In this document: positions 18,245-51,321 of the stretch, one piece after another
How positions within the stretch are numbered: position 1 is the first letter of the stretch
Layout: each line of letters starts with the position of its first letter
Source: Methanolobus vulcani
GTDB lineage: Archaea > Halobacteriota > Methanosarcinia > Methanosarcinales > Methanosarcinaceae
Reading direction: 5' to 3'
Assembly: GCF_900100715.1 (NCBI RefSeq)
Contig: NZ_FNCA01000001.1
Location: 434,001-498,000 of the forward strand
DNA: 64,000 nt
Notes under the pieces: model-generated
What the model saw: the letters and a program-made list of their open reading frames with translations, nothing else
What the model was told of the DNA's origin: nothing
Database searches by the model: none
Made by a program: the position numbers and the translations under genes

Positions 18245-19039
18245 ATGACAGCAATAATTTTCACAATCGTCTCAGGGAAGGGTGGTGCAGGCACAAGCAC
18301 TGCTGCTATAAATCTTGGTGCCGCTCTGGCAGGGTTCGCAAAAAAAACTCTGATCATCGATGCTGATGTAGGGATGCCCACCATTGGACTGATGTTGGGG
18401 CTTGAAACTTCAAAAGGAACTATCCACGAAGTACTTGCAGGCAAAGTAGAGCTTAGTGAAGCCGTTTATGACGGACCAAATAACATGCACATACTCCCTG
18501 GGAGCATCTCACTTCAGGGTTTTGTGAATGCAAATACAGAGATACTTGCAGACATTGTGGAAAGTGTCAAAGAAAAATATGATTATATCATAATTGATTC
18601 CCCTACCGGAATAAACAAGAATTCACTACTGGCAATATCCCTTGCTGATGAAATTATCCAGCTTGTCAATCCGGACATAGTATCGCTTGCCGGTGCAATG
18701 AAGATCAAAGCGATCAGCGACAATATGGGCAAGCAGTTCAGGGGATTGTTGCTTAACAGGACAGGTGTTACCCAGAATGAAATTAGTTCAGAGCGGATAG
18801 AAACTGCCCTTGGGCTCAAAATACTGGCAACATTACCAGAAGAGAAGAATGTGAAGAATTCACTTGCATTCAAATCTCCGATCGTCATCAAATATCCGGC
18901 TTCTCAGGTAAGTGTGAACTTTAATCGCCTTGCTGCCGAAATTGCAGGTATCAAAGTATCAGTAGAAGAACTGTCCCGTGAAGAGCCTGAAAAGAAAAAG
19001 AAAGCAAGAAAATTCTCACTTGCAAAGAATAAGAACTGA
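18245..19039 (+). CDS. MinD/TadZ-like ATPase homologue of the pilus operon
   Basis: The 264-residue protein belongs to the MinD/ParA superfamily by its start (IVSGKGGAGTSTAAINLG), its IIDADVGMPTIGLML segment and its IDSPTGINKNSLLAI segment. The deviant P-loop keeps the signature lysine Lys12, but the usual Walker A lysine is Thr17 (KGGAGTS instead of KGGxGKT). A C-terminal Lys-rich tail (about 250-264) is present. Bacterial TadZ proteins are MinD-family members with atypical Walker A motifs that position Tad pili, and this gene stands directly before TadA-, TadB- and TadC-like genes. I infer a TadZ-like positioning role; a MinD cell-division role is less likely. Confidence 0.8.
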   Translation: MTAIIFTIVSGKGGAGTSTAAINLGAALAGFAKKTLIIDADVGMPTIGLMLGLETSKGTIHEVLAGKVELSEAVYDGPNNMHILPGSISLQGFVNANTEILADIVESVKEKYDYIIIDSPTGINKNSLLAISLADEIIQLVNPDIVSLAGAMKIKAISDNMGKQFRGLLLNRTGVTQNEISSERIETALGLKILATLPEEKNVKNSLAFKSPIVIKYPASQVSVNFNRLAAEIAGIKVSVEELSREEPEKKKKARKFSLAKNKN

Positions 19040-19052
19040 TCCGGGTGAGAAT

Positions 19053-19136
19053 ATGCAAACTCCATCGGAAATGACTGAGCTGAAAAAGAATGGGATGATC
19101 ATAATTACTGGGGTTGGTAATTTTGAGCATAGATAA
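19053..19136 (+). CDS. Candidate 27-aa upstream ORF overlapping the TadA-like start
   Basis: An ATG 14 bases after the MinD/TadZ-like stop has an excellent ribosome binding site (GGGTGAGA, four bases away). It encodes 27 residues (MQTPSEMTELKKNGMIII...) and ends inside the beginning of the next gene, which has no ATG. It may serve translational coupling. It could also be the true N-terminus of the ATPase displaced by a sequence error. Confidence 0.35.
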   Translation: MQTPSEMTELKKNGMIIITGVGNFEHR

Positions 19137-21312
19137 CACTTCTGATAACCGGACAGATGCAACAGAAAATGCAGATGAGATCGATTCATCTCTTCAGCCT
19201 GAAAGTGAAACATCTGAAATTGAAGACTTCCTGCGGGAAATAAAAGAAAACGATGTTAGATCGGACTCCTCAGGAGAGAATTCAGAAAATGACATATCAC
19301 TGGATGACATACCCGTAAAAGAACCTGCAGAAGATGCGATCCAGGAAGATGGTCTTGCAGATGATGTCGATAATTCTCAAACTGAAACTAAAGAGATCTC
19401 ACCTCAAGAAGAAGCAACATTGATAAAAACAGAATCAGATACTGCTGTTCCCGAAATTGTTGAAGATGATGTGCAGCAAGACGGGAGCGAGACTCTGGCA
19501 GTTGATGAGGATGATATAATAGGCGAACTTGCCGACCTTATCCTTCCTGATGCAGAGCCGGTAAATATCGAAGACCTGAAAAGTAAGATAGATGACGTTT
19601 ATATCCCTTTATTCAGAGATAATGTAGAAGAAGAAAGGGATTCTTTCTGGAAGGACACTATTTCTGAACTATATAAAGAAGAACCCGTTGAAGAAGATAT
19701 ATTTACAGAAGAAGAGAAAGACTCTTCTATTCTTGACCGCATTACCAAGCTTTTCTCATCAAAGAAATCTCTCTATGAACCATACAATATTGTGGAACAC
19801 GGACCAATAGTAGACCTTACGATGCCTGCGGACAGTCCTTTCAGAGAAGTTGAACTTTATGAGGTAAACCCACTCTATGCATATGTCAGAATTGCATATG
19901 ACCCTGAATCACATGAATATCAATATCAGGCAATTGAACCTGTATTATCAGAAAAAGAACAGGAACTCCTTGATACTATAAAGTTGAAATTCATTGAAAC
20001 CTTGGATGTGAACCTTAAGGAGATCTCCCGCAAAAATGCTGAGGACTACCTGAGAGAAAATGTAGCGAAATATCTGCAGGAATTCAAGATAGATATCTCA
20101 CCGAGAAAACGTGAAAGAATAATGTATCACATTGTCCGTGACTATGTCGGATATGGAGAGATCGATGTGTTAATGAGAGACCCGAACCTGGAGGATATTT
20201 CCTGTGACGGACCTAACACTCCTGTGTATATCTATCATAAAGAATACAACTCGATCCCAAGTGACATTGAGTTCCCATCTGATGAGGTGCTGGATTCATT
20301 TGCCATCAGGATCGCACAGATATGTGGCAGACATATTTCAATTGCAAAACCATTGCTTGATGCTACAATGCCGGATGGTTCACGTATCCAGATGACCCTG
20401 GGACGTGAGATCACAACCCGTGGAAGTACTTTTACAATCAGGAGATTCAAGGATAACCCCATAACTCCAGCCAACCTTATAGAATATCATACATTCTCAA
20501 CAGCCATGATGGCTTACATGTGGCTGGCTGTTGATTCAAGTAAAAGCCTGATATTTGCCGGAGGAACCGCTTCCGGTAAAACAACTGCCATGAATGCAGT
20601 CTCACTTTTCATTCAGCCGGAAATGAAGATCGTTTCTATTGAAGATACAAGAGAACTGAATCTTTCACACCCTAACTGGATCCCTGGTGTTACCAGACAG
20701 GCATTTGCAGGCGAGGATAAAGGTTCCATTGAGATGTATGAGCTTCTAAGAGCATCACTCAGACAGAGGCCTGAATACATCCTGGTGGGTGAGGTACGAG
20801 GAGCTGAAGCCTATGTGTTGTTCCAGGCAATGTCCACAGGACACACTACATTCTCAACAATGCATGCTGATTCCGTACAATCAGTAGTACACAGGCTTGA
20901 AAACCCGCCGATCAACGTACCGAGGATCATGATCCAGGCGCTTGACCTTGTAGCCATCCAGATACAGGTAAAGGTTGGTGATGAGCGTGTCAGAAGATGC
21001 AAGAGTCTAACTGAAATAGTTGGTGTTGATCCAAGGACCGGTGAACTGCTTACTAATGATGTTTTCGTATGGGATGCTGCGCGTGATATGTTCCAGTACT
21101 CCGGGCGCTCCTATATTATTGAAAGCGTGATGGAAAGCCGCGGATGGAGTGAAGAGAAAGTTCGTGACGAACTAAAACGGCGGCAGGACATACTTGAATG
21201 GGCTCGTGATAAGAATATAACTCATTTCAGAGACTTTGCGAAGATCGTTGTGGGTTATAATCGTGAACCGGAAATGATAATGAAACTCGTAAGGCAGGAA
21301 TTGTATGGCTAA
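19114..21312 (+). CDS. TadA/GspE-type pilus assembly ATPase with long acidic N-terminus
   Basis: The 732-residue secretion ATPase has an acidic, low-complexity N-terminus of about 150-200 residues rich in Glu, Asp and Ser. A conserved N-terminal domain and the ATPase core follow, with Walker A GGTASGKTT (about 483-491) and Walker B/Asp-box LRQRPEYILVGEVRGAE (about 550-566). It powers assembly of a type IV pilus-like filament at the inner face of the membrane. No ATG is available: TTG at 19114 or, equally likely, TTG at 19123 is the start. The stop overlaps the next gene by 8 bases. The acidic tail is longer than in the archaellum ATPase ArlI. Confidence 0.92.
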   Translation: MVILSIDNTSDNRTDATENADEIDSSLQPESETSEIEDFLREIKENDVRSDSSGENSENDISLDDIPVKEPAEDAIQEDGLADDVDNSQTETKEISPQEEATLIKTESDTAVPEIVEDDVQQDGSETLAVDEDDIIGELADLILPDAEPVNIEDLKSKIDDVYIPLFRDNVEEERDSFWKDTISELYKEEPVEEDIFTEEEKDSSILDRITKLFSSKKSLYEPYNIVEHGPIVDLTMPADSPFREVELYEVNPLYAYVRIAYDPESHEYQYQAIEPVLSEKEQELLDTIKLKFIETLDVNLKEISRKNAEDYLRENVAKYLQEFKIDISPRKRERIMYHIVRDYVGYGEIDVLMRDPNLEDISCDGPNTPVYIYHKEYNSIPSDIEFPSDEVLDSFAIRIAQICGRHISIAKPLLDATMPDGSRIQMTLGREITTRGSTFTIRRFKDNPITPANLIEYHTFSTAMMAYMWLAVDSSKSLIFAGGTASGKTTAMNAVSLFIQPEMKIVSIEDTRELNLSHPNWIPGVTRQAFAGEDKGSIEMYELLRASLRQRPEYILVGEVRGAEAYVLFQAMSTGHTTFSTMHADSVQSVVHRLENPPINVPRIMIQALDLVAIQIQVKVGDERVRRCKSLTEIVGVDPRTGELLTNDVFVWDAARDMFQYSGRSYIIESVMESRGWSEEKVRDELKRRQDILEWARDKNITHFRDFAKIVVGYNREPEMIMKLVRQELYG

Positions 21313-22228
21313 TCCGTATTTTATTTTTGCTTACAACCTATTTGGAAAATACTATGAGAAAAAAAGGGTCGAGTTTTTCGGCCTGCGTCATAGTCTCCTT
21401 AAGAACAGAGTAGACATGGCTTTTGATGTGTACATGTCCGGTGCACTTCTAAGTTCAATACTTTCTGCATTTGTAGCATTGTTTGGAGTTTCTTTCCTTT
21501 TTCTTATATTTGGTGTACCTGAGGTAAAACCAACCAGAATCATGTTCCCTGGATGGATGGCACCATACCTCCAGTACAAATCGATTGTACTTGGAGTATT
21601 TTTCGGAATATTGTTCACAGCCCTTGTGTTTGTGATCATTTACAAGCTATTCCTTGTATATCCATCTATAATGGCAGGTGACAGAAAAAGAAGAATTGAC
21701 AGCATGCTTCCATATGCCGTGAACTATATGTCGGCCATGTCTGGTGCCGGAGTTCTTCCGGTTGATCTGTTCAGATCACTTGCGAACAATGATATCTATG
21801 GAGAAATGGCAGTTGAATGCAGATACCTGGTGCGTGACCTGGAGATATTAGGTCATGACCTTGTGACAGCTATGAAGAATCTTTCTGTAACAACACCATC
21901 AACAGCTTTGCAGGATTTCCTGCAAGGAGCTATCACAGTCGTAACTTCCGGCGGACAGCTTGAACCTTACTTTGAAATCAAGACCGAACAGTACATTTTG
22001 GAGAACAGACAGAACCAGAAAGAATTCCTGGAAACCCTTGGCCTTCTGGGGGAAACATATGTAACGGCTTTTGTTGCCGGTCCTCTTTTCCTTGTGGTGG
22101 TGATATCCATTATGTCCATTATGGGTAATGCACAGCTTATATTCCTTTATGTGATCATCTACGCACTGATACCAATTGGTAGTATCATGTATGTTGTCCT
22201 TATCAGTACTCTAACTCCGGAGGCCTAA
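21305..22228 (+). CDS. TadB/TadC-type pilus membrane platform protein 1
   Basis: The 307-residue membrane protein has hydrophobic segments near residues 40-65, 95-120, 255-275 and 280-300. Between the second and third lies a cytoplasmic domain with DSMLPYAVNYMSAMSGAGVL and the later YFEIKTEQYILENRQNQKEFLETL. This is the type II secretion F-domain of pilus platform proteins (GspF/TadC/ArlJ). It anchors the ATPase and extrudes pilin subunits. It overlaps the ATPase gene by 8 bases, and its stop is one base before the start of the second platform gene. Confidence 0.9.
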   Translation: MANPYFIFAYNLFGKYYEKKRVEFFGLRHSLLKNRVDMAFDVYMSGALLSSILSAFVALFGVSFLFLIFGVPEVKPTRIMFPGWMAPYLQYKSIVLGVFFGILFTALVFVIIYKLFLVYPSIMAGDRKRRIDSMLPYAVNYMSAMSGAGVLPVDLFRSLANNDIYGEMAVECRYLVRDLEILGHDLVTAMKNLSVTTPSTALQDFLQGAITVVTSGGQLEPYFEIKTEQYILENRQNQKEFLETLGLLGETYVTAFVAGPLFLVVVISIMSIMGNAQLIFLYVIIYALIPIGSIMYVVLISTLTPEA

Positions 22229-22229
22229 A

Positions 22230-23219
22230 ATGAAGTTAGCTGATTTTTTGAGATTAAATGCAAAAGAAAATGAAACGCTGACGGAAGAAGAACTGATAGA
22301 ATTGGAAGACAACCTGATCAACGCAAAAATGGAGGAAGCAACAAAGAATGTAGTGATAAAGGAATTCCTGAAGGATCCCTTAAAGACACTGTATAACTAT
22401 CCGGAATACACATTCGCAATTAGTGTGCCTATTGCACTGGTTTTCTTTGTAATTGGTATGATTGCTACATGGGACACCCCTATAATAGATGATGTGATAA
22501 TCTTTTCAGTGCTTATTTCCATTACACCTCCTGCGTTTACATTCCATAAGAAATACAAGAGGACAGATACAATCGAAGAATACCTGCCTACTTTCCTCAG
22601 GGACATTTCCGAAATGAGCAGGGCAGGACTTACCCTTCCAAGAGCAGTGAACACTGTTGCAAAAGGAGAATATGGCGCCCTTACAAAGGAAGTTCAGGCA
22701 ATGGATGCATCAATGTCCTGGGGTGTTTCTTTTGAAGAATCATTACAGAACTTTGCAAAAAGAGTTCCAACTCCGATTATCGTAAGGTCAGTTTCACTTA
22801 TCACACAGGCAAGCAAAGCCGGAGGTCGTGTTGCTTCGGTTCTAGAAGCTGCTGCCCGTGATGCAAGAGAAGTTAAATTACTGGAACGTGAGAGACGTGG
22901 TAATATGATGGTATATGTGGTCATCAGTTACATGTCATTCTTTGTGTTCCTTTTTGTTATAGGAATGCTCACATCCACTTTCGTACCGACCATGGCAGAA
23001 GCCGGAAAAGCTGCACAGGCAGCTGGAGCCGGAAGTCAGTTCATTGGTGCATTTGACCCGGCAAAATACACACGACTCATGATGCACACAGGAGTGATCC
23101 AGGGATTTATGAGCGGACTTGTGGCAGGACAGATGGGCGAAGGTTCTGTGTTCCAGGGTCTGAAACACTCTATCATCCTGACACTCGTAGCATGGATGGT
23201 ATTTACTTTTGTGATCTAA
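22230..23219 (+). CDS. TadB/TadC-type pilus membrane platform protein 2
   Basis: The 329-residue membrane protein has a soluble N-terminus of about 60 residues and hydrophobic segments near 63-82, 87-107, 228-250 and 308-329. The central F-domain has YLPTFLRDISEMSRAGLTLP and VRSVSLITQASKAGGRVASV. It is a second, divergent platform protein. The pair of two distinct platform proteins in tandem is characteristic of Tad and of several archaeal pilus systems, whereas archaella use one. It is the last gene of the operon. No pilin or prepilin peptidase gene is adjacent. Confidence 0.9.
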   Translation: MKLADFLRLNAKENETLTEEELIELEDNLINAKMEEATKNVVIKEFLKDPLKTLYNYPEYTFAISVPIALVFFVIGMIATWDTPIIDDVIIFSVLISITPPAFTFHKKYKRTDTIEEYLPTFLRDISEMSRAGLTLPRAVNTVAKGEYGALTKEVQAMDASMSWGVSFEESLQNFAKRVPTPIIVRSVSLITQASKAGGRVASVLEAAARDAREVKLLERERRGNMMVYVVISYMSFFVFLFVIGMLTSTFVPTMAEAGKAAQAAGAGSQFIGAFDPAKYTRLMMHTGVIQGFMSGLVAGQMGEGSVFQGLKHSIILTLVAWMVFTFVI

Positions 23220-23251: not shown

Positions 23252-23283
23252 GGAAGGCTTATTCTATTTTGGAATAAGCTTCC
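23252..23283 (-). terminator. Hairpin terminator at the fumarase 3' end
   Basis: The perfect arms GCTTATTC (23257-23264) and GAATAAGC (23272-23279), with further GGAA/TTCC pairing outside, overlap the last codons of the fumarase beta subunit. On the minus strand a long T-rich stretch follows (23221-23250). It separates the convergent fumarase and pilus operons. Confidence 0.5.
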
Positions 23284-23834
23284 AGTGCTTTTTTTCTTAC
23301 ATCTGTGAAAAGATCATTCTCATGGGAATCTATTCCCACAACCAGAGGACCGAAATTCTCTACCTTAAGTTCCCATACAGCTTCAGGCATCCCAAGGTCA
23401 AGCCAGTGAACTGTGGTTACTTTTTCAATGCTCATGGCTGCAAGGGCTGCACATCCTCCTGTGAATGCCAGATAGACAGACTTCCCCTTCATGGCTTCTG
23501 TTACGTTATCCATGCCACCTTTCCCCACAAATGCACGAACGTCATGGATATCAAGGAGAGCCGGTGTCATTTTTGACATCCTTGCACTGGTGGTTGGTCC
23601 GGCAGCAACAACTTCCCAGCCATCATCTTTTCCCTTCATGAGAGGACCGCAGTGATATATTACCGCACCTTCAAGGTCAAATGGAAGTTCTTTCTTTTCC
23701 TCTGCCATTTCAAGAATTCTTGCATGGGCTTCGTCCCTTGCAGTGTAAACAGTCCCGTTGAGATAAACAATGTCACCTGCATTTAGTTTATCAACATCTT
23801 CTTTTTTCAGTGGTGTATTTAGCTTGTATTCCAT
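23259..23834 (-). CDS. fumB: Fumarate hydratase class I, beta subunit
   Basis: The 191-residue protein matches the C-terminal domain of class I fumarases. Motifs are [43 protein letters not shown] and [11 protein letters not shown], which form the substrate-binding part. With the alpha subunit it interconverts fumarate and malate, in the partial citric acid cycle used for biosynthesis in methanogens. Its ATG overlaps the alpha stop in a TAATG junction, so the subunits are translationally coupled. The beta-subunit symbol varies between databases. Confidence 0.92.
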
Positions 23835-24673
23835 TATTCATCACCACCCAGAACAACTGAAGCATGACGATTCGCCCAGCATTGAATATTTACCGCAACA
23901 GGAAGTGATGCTGTATGACAATGTGCTTTTTTAATGTGGACTGCTAAAGCGGTTGTTTTTCCTCCAAGTCCCATTGGTCCTATTCCCAGTGAATTAATGT
24001 CATCAAGGAGAACTGTTTCTTCTTCGCTCATCTCATCAACTTTCTCAAGCAGAGCTGACTTTGCAAGTCTTGCAGCTTTGTCAAATGAACCACCAATACC
24101 CACACCTACAACAACCGGAGGGCATGGTTTTCCACCTGCATTAAGGACGGTTTCAAGAACAAAATTACGGATGCTGTCCTTTTCAGTTGGATTGAGCATT
24201 TTTATTGCGCTCATATTCTCAGAACCTGCACCCTTCGGTGCCGCGGTTATCTTAATGCTGCTTCCATCAACAAGTTCGTATTTAATGTCAGGAATTCCGT
24301 TTCCAGTATTATTTCCGCTGTTGCTTCTGGTTAAAGGATCAACAGCATTTGGACGCAGTGGTATCGACCGAGTTGCTTTTTTCACACCTTCAAGAATTGC
24401 ATCTTCCAGCCTGAAATCCATTCTGGCATCACGACCGAGTTCAACATAGAAAATCAATATGCCAGTATCCTGGCACATCGGTACTTTTTTCTTTGCTGCG
24501 ATCCCTATATTCTTCAGGATAGCTTCAAGTTGCTCTTTTGCAACAGGAGATGATTCTTGCGATGCAGCTTTTTCTAATGCAACAACAACATCCTTTGGTA
24601 GTACGGTCTCAGCCTCTTCTAATATATCAACAACAGCAGATACAACAGTATCATAATCAATAGGATTTGACAA
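23834..24673 (-). CDS. fumA: Fumarate hydratase class I, alpha subunit
   Basis: The 279-residue protein holds the 4Fe-4S part of class I fumarase. The three cluster cysteines are Cys67 (PMCQDTG), Cys184 ([15 protein letters not shown]) and Cys265 (IQCWANRHA). The Fe-S cluster directly activates the substrate water, which makes the enzyme oxygen-sensitive and fits an anaerobe. AGGTGA precedes the ATG. It is the first gene of the two-gene operon; tRNA-Leu lies 19 bases upstream on the same strand. Confidence 0.93.
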
Positions 24674-40996: not shown

Positions 40997-41872
40997 TTAG
41001 TATCTCAGTAGGATATACTTCTTATCGAAATATGCACCTGGTGTGGTAAAGTCGAAAACTACAAGAGCTCCTGCTTCAGGTCTTACCTGGAAGGAAACTT
41101 CAGTCCTGGGAGGAAGACCTTCATAGCTCTCATCATCAACCTGGAATACCTTACGGATATCCACTACTACTTCCATGATATCACCGGTCCTGAGTACCGG
41201 TTGTGTTGCCTTGAAAACAGTCTGATCACGGGAACGTATCGGACTTACTGAGAAGTATTCAGCAGTTGGCAAATGTACTGTATCACTTGTGTCTGATGTG
41301 TCATATCTGACATTGGCAACATGAGAACCATCTGACAGATAGATGATCAATTGTGAAAGATCAACATCCTCACTACCCGGACCTAAAGATACGGAAATGT
41401 GCAACTTTGTGATCTGACCGTAGTCAAGAGTATCATTTACAATAACATTTCCTGTAGTAGTAGTGCTGCCATCATCTATGGTGAAATTATAAGTTCCCTG
41501 TGATGTAAAACGATATTCATAATAAGAACCATCGGCTACAGAGCCGTTCTCACCATTTACAGTAATATCAAAAGAACCCGCTGAAGAAATCCATTCAACC
41601 ATTTGTCCTTTATAACAGGATAAATTAGTATTAGAAACCACCCCATTTGTCACAGTAACTGTGGAATAAGAGGCACGTTCACCCTCTACACGGTCGATAC
41701 GCATATTGGAAGCAACCTCACGTGTCGTTTCCTGACCGGTTTGAGCTGCTTTCTGCTGAAGCACTCCTGAGGTCTTGATCAAAAGGGCAGACGCTACGGC
41801 TGCCACAAGTACCATGGATATAAAGATGATAAGGGTACCTATACCTACCTGTGCACGGTCATCCCTGTGCAT
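40997..41872 (-). CDS. Archaellin (flagellin-type pilin) with inserted domain
   Basis: The 291-residue protein has a short charged leader ending in DDR and then [20 protein letters not shown], the conserved archaellin N-terminus cut by the prepilin peptidase before the Ala-Gln. The hydrophobic helix continues to about residue 57. Residues 69-152 form an extra beta-rich segment (with [12 protein letters not shown] and [10 protein letters not shown]) that the second archaellin in the window lacks. The C-terminal part (from [10 protein letters not shown]) is the normal archaellin beta domain. It builds or decorates the archaellum. No other archaellum genes are near. Confidence 0.92.
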
Positions 41873-50339: not shown

Positions 50340-51119
50340 TTATGGATACAGTTGTACAGTTTCCTTAACACCGTAAGAAGAAGGCGTGACGAACTCTGCA
50401 CTGGTTGCTGCACCAGACTCAGGGGTCAGGACAATGCTGACCACAGTACGCGGAACAAGGTTAAGACCTGATGAATACATACTTCCTGGAGCTCTAGAAC
50501 CAATATAAGTATAAGTAGACCCACCTGCTTCTAGTGATGTTGTTCCAATATACACAGTAATAAGGTCCCCGGTATTCATTACAGGATTACTCTGAGAGAA
50601 CGATGAATCCTCATCACGAATCTTTTCAACTGTAAAGTAGCGCATAGAGCTATTAACACCGTTGGTTACTGTACGAAAAAGTGCATCCAGATTGTCTGCA
50701 GCGGATGTTGAATTAAATGTAAACATTTGTCCGTATGACTTATCATTACCTGCATACGCAAGGTTATTTGTAGTTGTCCCGTCTGTGATGGAGATAATTA
50801 CCTGATTTACATCCACCGGTGAACTTCCAACATTAAGACCAACTTTTAGTTCCAGCATGTCGATTGTGTTGGACATGTCGACTAAAGAATTTTTTGCACG
50901 TACACCTTCGATGTCTTTGACCATGAGGTTGGATGAAACTTCCTGTGTTGCCTGTTTACCTGTTGACTGGGCTTTCTGTTGCAGAGTACCTGATGTCTGA
51001 ATCAGAACAGCGGCAGCTACAGCGGCTACCAGCACCATGGCTATGAAAATGATAAGAGTACCAATACCCACCTGGGCACGTGTATCTTTTTTCATGAAAA
51101 ATTGTTTATTTGCTTTCAT
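50340..51119 (-). CDS. Archaellin (flagellin-type pilin)
   Basis: The protein of about 259 residues has a positively charged leader ending in KKDTR and then [20 protein letters not shown], the standard archaellin N-terminus. The beta domain follows directly ([20 protein letters not shown]), without the insert seen in the other archaellin. The ATG at 51119 is preceded by GGGGACTTGCAT, while an upstream TTG is less likely. It is probably a major subunit of the archaellum filament. The gene stands alone, about 9 kb from the second archaellin; TATA-like TTATATATAG lies upstream. Confidence 0.93.
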
Positions 51120-51321
51120 ATGCAAGTCCCCAATAATTATATATAAAAAATAATATAATGAGCATTGACTTTTACTATATATAATGATTACCCTTTGAAT
51201 GTACAGATATTATTACAGTTCCTTAACCATGTAACTATTAATGCAAAATTATTGTTGATGTAATGATCTGTTTTTTCTACTAGATAAATATAGAAAGAAC
51301 CAGAAAGAGTCGATTTCCACC

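Follow-up and report, generated by a model that had tools for sequence, protein, structure and literature searches.

Is the MinD-like protein encoded at the head of a pilus-type operon in the archaeon Methanolobus vulcani a counterpart of bacterial TadZ, or an archaeal MinD that has lost a defining residue? The question is raised by a 64,000-nucleotide (nt) stretch of contig NZ_FNCA01000001.1 (positions 434,001 to 498,000; hereafter the window), in which four plus-strand genes run from 18245 to 23219. A first-pass annotation, made from the sequence alone, had read these as MinD-like, TadA-like ATPase, TadB-like and TadC-like, in the order of bacterial tadZABC, and we recovered the four open reading frames (ORFs) in exactly this order and position. 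The features of the locus, with its convergent neighbors, are:

18245..19039, + strand: MinD-like protein, 264 amino acids (aa); TIGR01969 at 239.2 bits (cut-off 201.75); AlphaFold2 (AF2) model with a predicted local distance difference test (pLDDT) score of 86.5
18272..18301, + strand: deviant Walker A motif SGKGGAGTST (residues 10-19), with Thr at codon 17 instead of the P-loop lysine and Lys12 kept
18977..19036, + strand: Lys-rich tail (residues 245-264) in place of an amphipathic membrane helix, from tail comparison; AF2 pLDDT below 50
19114..21312, + strand: pilus assembly/secretion ATPase (TadA/FlaI/GspE2/PilB3-like), 732 aa, TTG start; PF00437 at 135.8 bits, PilB3_C at 30.4 bits
21305..22228, + strand: platform protein with one T2SSF domain (PF00482, 54.3 bits), 307 aa, corresponding to the N-terminal half of fused FlaJ/TadC-type platforms (hhalign columns 44-352 of 694)
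22230..23219, + strand: platform protein with one T2SSF domain (PF00482, 72.4 bits), 329 aa, corresponding to the C-terminal half of fused platforms (hhalign columns 380-694 of 694)
23259..24673, - strand: fumarase beta and alpha genes (PF05683, PF05681), convergent with the operon; the same downstream ORF pair flags syntenic loci of related genera

Loss of the P-loop lysine and the tail helix in Methanolobus MinD

Proteins of the ParA/MinD superfamily carry two lysines in this motif, the signature lysine (here Lys12) and the P-loop lysine (here position 17). The protein in the window reads S10-G-K12-G-G-A-G16-T17-S18-T, with Lys12 present and Thr17 at the position of the P-loop lysine, just as the first-pass annotation had it. 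That annotation also named the prospect that Thr17 was unique to this sequence or a sequencing error, and it is neither. Across 27 Methanolobus genomes, 26 of them readable at position 17 and one with Ns there, not one orthologue carries Lys (0/26); 15 have Thr, 10 Ser, and one Val. With independent genomes, single-contig ones included, all lacking the lysine, the chance that the codon reflects a sequencing or assembly error is practically nil. In contrast, the lysine is present in 44 of 44 non-Methanolobus archaeal MinDs in our alignment, including the MinDs of the same operon in other genera, which places its loss on the Methanolobus stem, from where all species of the genus inherited it. 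The atypical Walker A is thus not ancestral to the archaeal system; the change arose on the Methanolobus branch. While MinD in archaeal pilus loci and the atypical TadZ are already known, we found no report of a genus-wide P-loop lysine loss in an archaeal pilus-operon MinD in the literature searched.

The remaining pocket is retained, with K12, D39, D41, D118, and G122 in all 21 Methanolobus MinDs compared and N171 in 20 of the 21. The adjacent motor ATPase keeps its own intact Walker A (GGTASGKTT).

A second loss affects the C-terminus. An amphipathic helix (e.g. GFVDRLARALFGG) forms the C-terminus of the operon MinDs in other genera and is missing in 21/21 Methanolobus MinDs; these end in a Lys-rich tail (e.g. 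KKKKARKFSLAKNKN) that is predicted to be disordered from its low AF2 pLDDT. Among the last 15 residues, two to three are hydrophobic in Methanolobus, versus four to eight in operon MinDs of other genera except g21 (genera are given here by our own codes). The g21 MinD, sister to those of Methanolobus, likewise lacks the helix and still has the P-loop lysine. Taken with the tree of the motor genes, this state orders the two events: the helix was lost before Methanolobus and g21 split, and the lysine later, on the Methanolobus stem. Absence of the helix is also seen in some other archaeal MinD rows, such as L193.

Despite both losses, the gene is under purifying selection. The pairwise ratio of nonsynonymous to synonymous substitution rates (dN/dS) within Methanolobus has a median of 0.10 (0.04-0.15) for minD, compared with 0.04 in the ATPase core, 0.07 and 0.09 in the two platform genes, and 0.07 in the neighboring fumarase gene. 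By this comparison minD is constrained, slightly less so than its neighbors, and simple decay is disfavored by the substitution pattern.

These values bear on the reading that Methanolobus MinD is a relic, tolerated rather than used, on a path along which first the helix, then the lysine, and finally, in a related genus, the whole gene disappears. In that genus, g17 (11 genomes), the locus keeps its two downstream ORFs and, where readable, the ATPase and platform genes, while minD is gone; no protein exceeding the archaeal MinD cut-off was found in any of the 11 genomes. The drift of position 17 among Thr, Ser, and Val and the stepwise order of losses, with the helix already missing in lysine-bearing g21, also speak for a relic. 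Yet the minD frame is open in all Methanolobus loci read, its dN/dS stays near 0.10, and the pocket residues and signature lysine are kept invariant. Moreover, g17 groups at 100% with lysine- and helix-bearing genera in the motor-gene tree, so its minD deletion is a separate event on another branch and does not continue the losses seen in Methanolobus. We consider a relic unlikely. As a separate observation on g17, the second platform protein of five loci (L280, L281, L282, L287, and L288) carries a long N-terminal extension, totaling 424-463 aa versus about 330; in L282 the extension is an acidic repeat (ELAEVD-like), and the other g17 loci lack it (328-330 aa).

Ancestry of the MinD-like protein and its operon

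The altered P-loop does recall TadZ. The structure 3FKQ, deposited as an NtrC-like two-domain protein and taken here to be the TadZ of Eubacterium rectale, has the sequence GGVGTST at this place; in a related TadZ (L231) it is GGTGTST. Both have Thr exactly where Methanolobus MinD has it. Among the eight bacterial TadZ sampled, six lack the P-loop lysine (three Thr, two Arg, and one Ala). TadZ has been described as having an atypical Walker A, as still binding ATP although its ATPase activity is low, and as recruiting further Tad components at the pole (PMC6668835). In Caulobacter, the Tad machine has been modeled in situ with six dimers of the TadZ homologue CpaE in a ring around the CpaF hexamer (PMC13170226). 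The proposed similarity in kind to the TadZ Walker A is accordingly well founded.

Whether it extends to descent is another matter. Were this a true archaeal TadZ, protein and operon would go back to the system from which bacterial Tad pili arose; the gene order and split platform are indeed alike, the GTST motif is common to both, and Denise and co-workers, who place the Epd pilus next to Tad, note that archaeal arCOG00589 can be aligned to TadZ profiles (PMC6668835). The profile scores, however, favor archaeal MinD: the protein exceeds the TIGR01969 (archaeal MinD) cut-off at 239.2 bits, versus 59 bits for the CpaE model, and is the only one to do so among the genome proteins tested, the next paralogue (27% identity) reaching 90.6 bits. 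In the phylogeny, Methanolobus MinDs form one clade (100%) that is sister to lysine-bearing g21 (97% by the Shimodaira–Hasegawa-like approximate likelihood ratio test, SH-aLRT) among lysine-bearing archaeal MinDs, whereas the eight bacterial TadZ, on very long branches, fall with bacterial MinD/FlhG-type rows (95%). An approximately unbiased (AU) test did not reject a single clade of Methanolobus MinD and TadZ (p 0.111; log-likelihood 20.8 lower), a result to be read with the very long TadZ branches in mind and one that counts for common descent. A further AU comparison, in which TadZ was joined to a group of sequences that does not itself form one clade, was set aside. At least three changes of the P-loop lysine state are forced by the starred branches of the tree. 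Two facts lead us to treat the losses in the two groups as independent: TadZ itself includes proteins with the lysine (L230 and L236), and the closest relatives of Methanolobus MinD all bear it.

The AF2 model has a plain MinD fold, matching archaeal MinD 1g3q best in the PDB (Z 35.1; root-mean-square deviation 1.6 over 235 residues), with Z scores of 31-35 across 1g3q, 1ion, and 1hyq. The TadZ structure 3FKQ was absent among the matches listed by Foldseek and VIA, where MinDs rank first, which has no bearing on kinship; likewise, a TadZ_N (PF16968) profile search gave no match in the genome and none in control genomes either. An N-terminal receiver-like domain is absent, the P-loop beginning at residue 10. 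On these profile and tree comparisons, the Methanolobus protein is most probably a variant archaeal MinD and not a TadZ by descent, and the TadZ homology suggested at first does not hold beyond the shared MinD superfamily. With the motor ATPase also placed in a euryarchaeal group (see below), we judge a true archaeal TadZ very improbable.

The association of this MinD with pilus operons, in turn, was borne out. The four genes are closely spaced (74-nt gap, 8-nt overlap, and 1-nt gap), and minD directly precedes the ATPase and two platform genes at 18 further loci in other genera of the same family. The order minD-ATPase-T2SSF-T2SSF is conserved in all other family genera with minD at the locus, and it recurs with the canonical MinD lysine at two loci of more distant families (L178 and L197). 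One genome of genus g22 also encodes a second, solitary MinD (L157, G086:C13) besides its pilus-operon MinD (L158); both bear the lysine. Flp pilin, TadE/F/G, and secretin genes are absent from the M. vulcani locus, whose neighbors are ribosome biogenesis, SLOG, exonuclease, and fumarase genes. The naming of the platform genes as TadB and TadC is apt only in part: two T2SSF genes are present, but the names are positional, as hhalign placed both bacterial TadB and TadC best on the C-terminal half, in a comparison with small bacterial sets to which L206 contributed a wrong gene pair. A one-to-one homology of the platform genes with TadB and TadC was dropped on this result.

The motor ATPase finds its best solved relative in Archaeoglobus GspE2 (2oap, 418.6 bits), followed by FlaI (291) and CpaF (175), and at 161 bits it lies below the cut-off (373) of TIGR03819, the TadA/CpaF-family ATPase profile. 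In a tree that contained no Epd sequence, it groups with euryarchaeal pilus ATPases, with bacterial TadA apart at 100%. The PilB3_C match and 2oap point to a probable Clade 2 ATPase. Euryarchaeal Clade 2 comprises ATPase/TadC modules that often lack pilins in the locus and often have two tadC genes (Makarova 2016, PMC4858521), and it is expected to use a FleN/MinD ATPase, usually encoded alone (PMC4858521). In its gene content, the locus appears to fit a type IV pilus module of this clade. The suggestion that it is a relative of the source system of Tad pili thus survives only broadly, since each is an archaeal-type pilus that has a MinD-family partner; a special kinship is unsupported, given the euryarchaeal ATPase, the separate position of TadA, and the lack of a detectable EppA. 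In the scheme of Denise and co-workers, the neighbor of Tad is Epd and not the present clade (PMC6668835).

An N-terminal arm of some 237 aa (19114-19824), with a net charge of -55 and 31% Asp+Glu, precedes the conserved core of the ATPase; the length and charge of this arm differ widely between genera. The idea that the basic MinD tail docks on this acidic arm is not supported, as g17 has an acidic arm without minD.

Elsewhere, the genome holds four further pilus- or archaellum-type ATPases, one divergent ATPase, and one PIN-domain ATPase. Pilin-like loci in trans number five, four of them exceeding the cut-off; the PF07790 pilins lie on other contigs. A dedicated EppA was not found; the one A24 peptidase of the genome is encoded elsewhere, with FlaK as its sole NCBIfam match, below that model's cut-off. 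Another ATPase with a split platform (L243, G000:C9; 305 and 463 aa) is separate from the present operon and falls on a long branch. A FlaI gene beside a FlaH-like gene is found on another contig (C13, L203/L245), and two archaellin-family genes (PF01917) stand alone in the window at 40997-41872 and 50340-51125, both on the minus strand.

A candidate hub on the pilus motor

In the usual cycle, ATP-bound MinD dimerizes and attaches to the membrane by its tail helix until hydrolysis releases it. With the P-loop lysine and the tail helix both gone, this cycle of ATP-driven dimerization, membrane binding, and release should fail in Methanolobus MinD. We read the locus as the motor module of a euryarchaeal type IV pilus, made up of the ATPase and the split platform, with its pilins encoded elsewhere and a dedicated archaeal MinD in front. 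In Methanolobus, this MinD may have turned into a TadZ-like hub. Such a protein would most likely bind nucleotide through its remaining pocket (Lys12, Asp39, Asp41, Asp118, and Asn171), hydrolyze it weakly or not at all, and sit on the motor ATPase as a stable adaptor that sets where or when the pilus machine assembles. Of the readings weighed, this lineage-specific, membrane-uncoupled, and non- or weakly hydrolyzing MinD hub seems to us the best, and one that could equally well prove wrong.

Work on other archaea is consistent with such a role. In Haloferax, the K16A change in MinD2 left motility unaffected (PMC11588486) or mildly affected (PMC11621097), while a Walker B change had a strong effect; an archaeal MinD can thus function without its P-loop lysine. 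Haloferax MinD4 reportedly oscillates independently of its Walker motifs, while its polar caps depend on them (PMC11588486, PMC11621097), and DNA uptake in Methanococcus maripaludis requires a MinD/ParA protein as well as pili (PMC10133366).

Four observations weigh against a TadZ-like hub. The signature lysine that Methanolobus keeps is missing in seven of the eight bacterial TadZ sampled, so that the pockets are unequal. Asp150, near-invariant in archaeal MinDs, is Gly in 21/21 Methanolobus MinDs, which could mean that dimerization is lost too. Further, minD has the highest dN/dS in the operon, and in g17 the motor is retained without any minD and so does not require the hub in that genus.

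The converse reading is that Methanolobus MinD remains a working ATPase, with a substitute residue standing in for the lysine and the protein cycling like other MinDs. Retention of every other catalytic or binding residue, a predicted fold that is plain MinD (Z 35 to 1g3q), and the existence of variant P-loop models in the superfamily (KGGVGR, NF047398) would all agree with it. Against this, none of the screened columns of the folded domain gains a Lys or Arg that tracks the loss, and the membrane helix on which MinD cycling depends has disappeared, making continued cycling improbable.

Pressed further, the hub reading would have the TadZ-like MinD state re-invented independently by a whole genus as an ATP-holding, non-cycling, membrane-free hub fixed to the pilus motor, reached by loss of the helix and then of the P-loop lysine while the dimer-sensing signature lysine was kept. 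This stronger version we put forward only tentatively, and with some doubt. If the parallel is true, the pilus hubs of two domains of life reached the same broken P-loop, which would suggest that such a hub needs stable holding of nucleotide and not its hydrolysis. Loss of the P-loop lysine in archaeal MinD looks rare (0/44 others sampled) and is here fixed genus-wide under purifying selection; the lysine-bearing orthologues in the same operon of neighboring genera serve as natural controls, and g17, in which the motor has outlasted minD, shows what it is capable of in the absence of this protein. Together, they make the TadZ question testable, namely what role a pilus-bound MinD unable to cycle might play.

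Comparison with known systems

Relative to archaeal MinD (TIGR01969; arCOG00589-type FleN/MinD), the protein agrees in score, fold, signature lysine, Walker B Asp, and tree position, and differs in the genus-wide replacement of the P-loop lysine, the basic disordered tail in place of the membrane helix, and the Asp150-to-Gly change. Compared with TadZ/CpaE, it shares the gene position directly ahead of a motor ATPase and two platform genes and the Thr for P-loop lysine (GTST, as in 3FKQ). Unlike TadZ, it keeps the signature lysine, appears to be an archaeal MinD by descent, and lacks both the N-terminal receiver domain (also missing from the bacterial TadZ-position proteins L228 and L229) and a membrane helix, which CpaE reportedly has.

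With Clade 2 type IV pili (PilB3/GspE2 type), the operon has in common an ATPase with split platform, a locus without pilins, the PilB3_C match, 2oap as the closest structure, and two tadC-like genes; here, however, MinD sits in the operon instead of being encoded alone, with an altered P-loop in Methanolobus. The Epd pilus of Methanococcus, the proposed nearest kin of Tad (PMC6668835), resembles it in the split platform and an associated MinD/FleN-type ATPase. It differs in that no dedicated EppA was found here, only the FlaK-like A24 peptidase encoded elsewhere, in that the ATPase resembles FlaI/PilB3/GspE2, and in that the accessory ATPase of the operon is MinD and not FlaH. Another point of comparison is beta-McdA type 1 of carboxysome positioning, a ParA/MinD protein that functions although its deviant Walker A is one lysine short: McdA is without the signature lysine (PMC8262871), whereas Methanolobus MinD is without the P-loop lysine.

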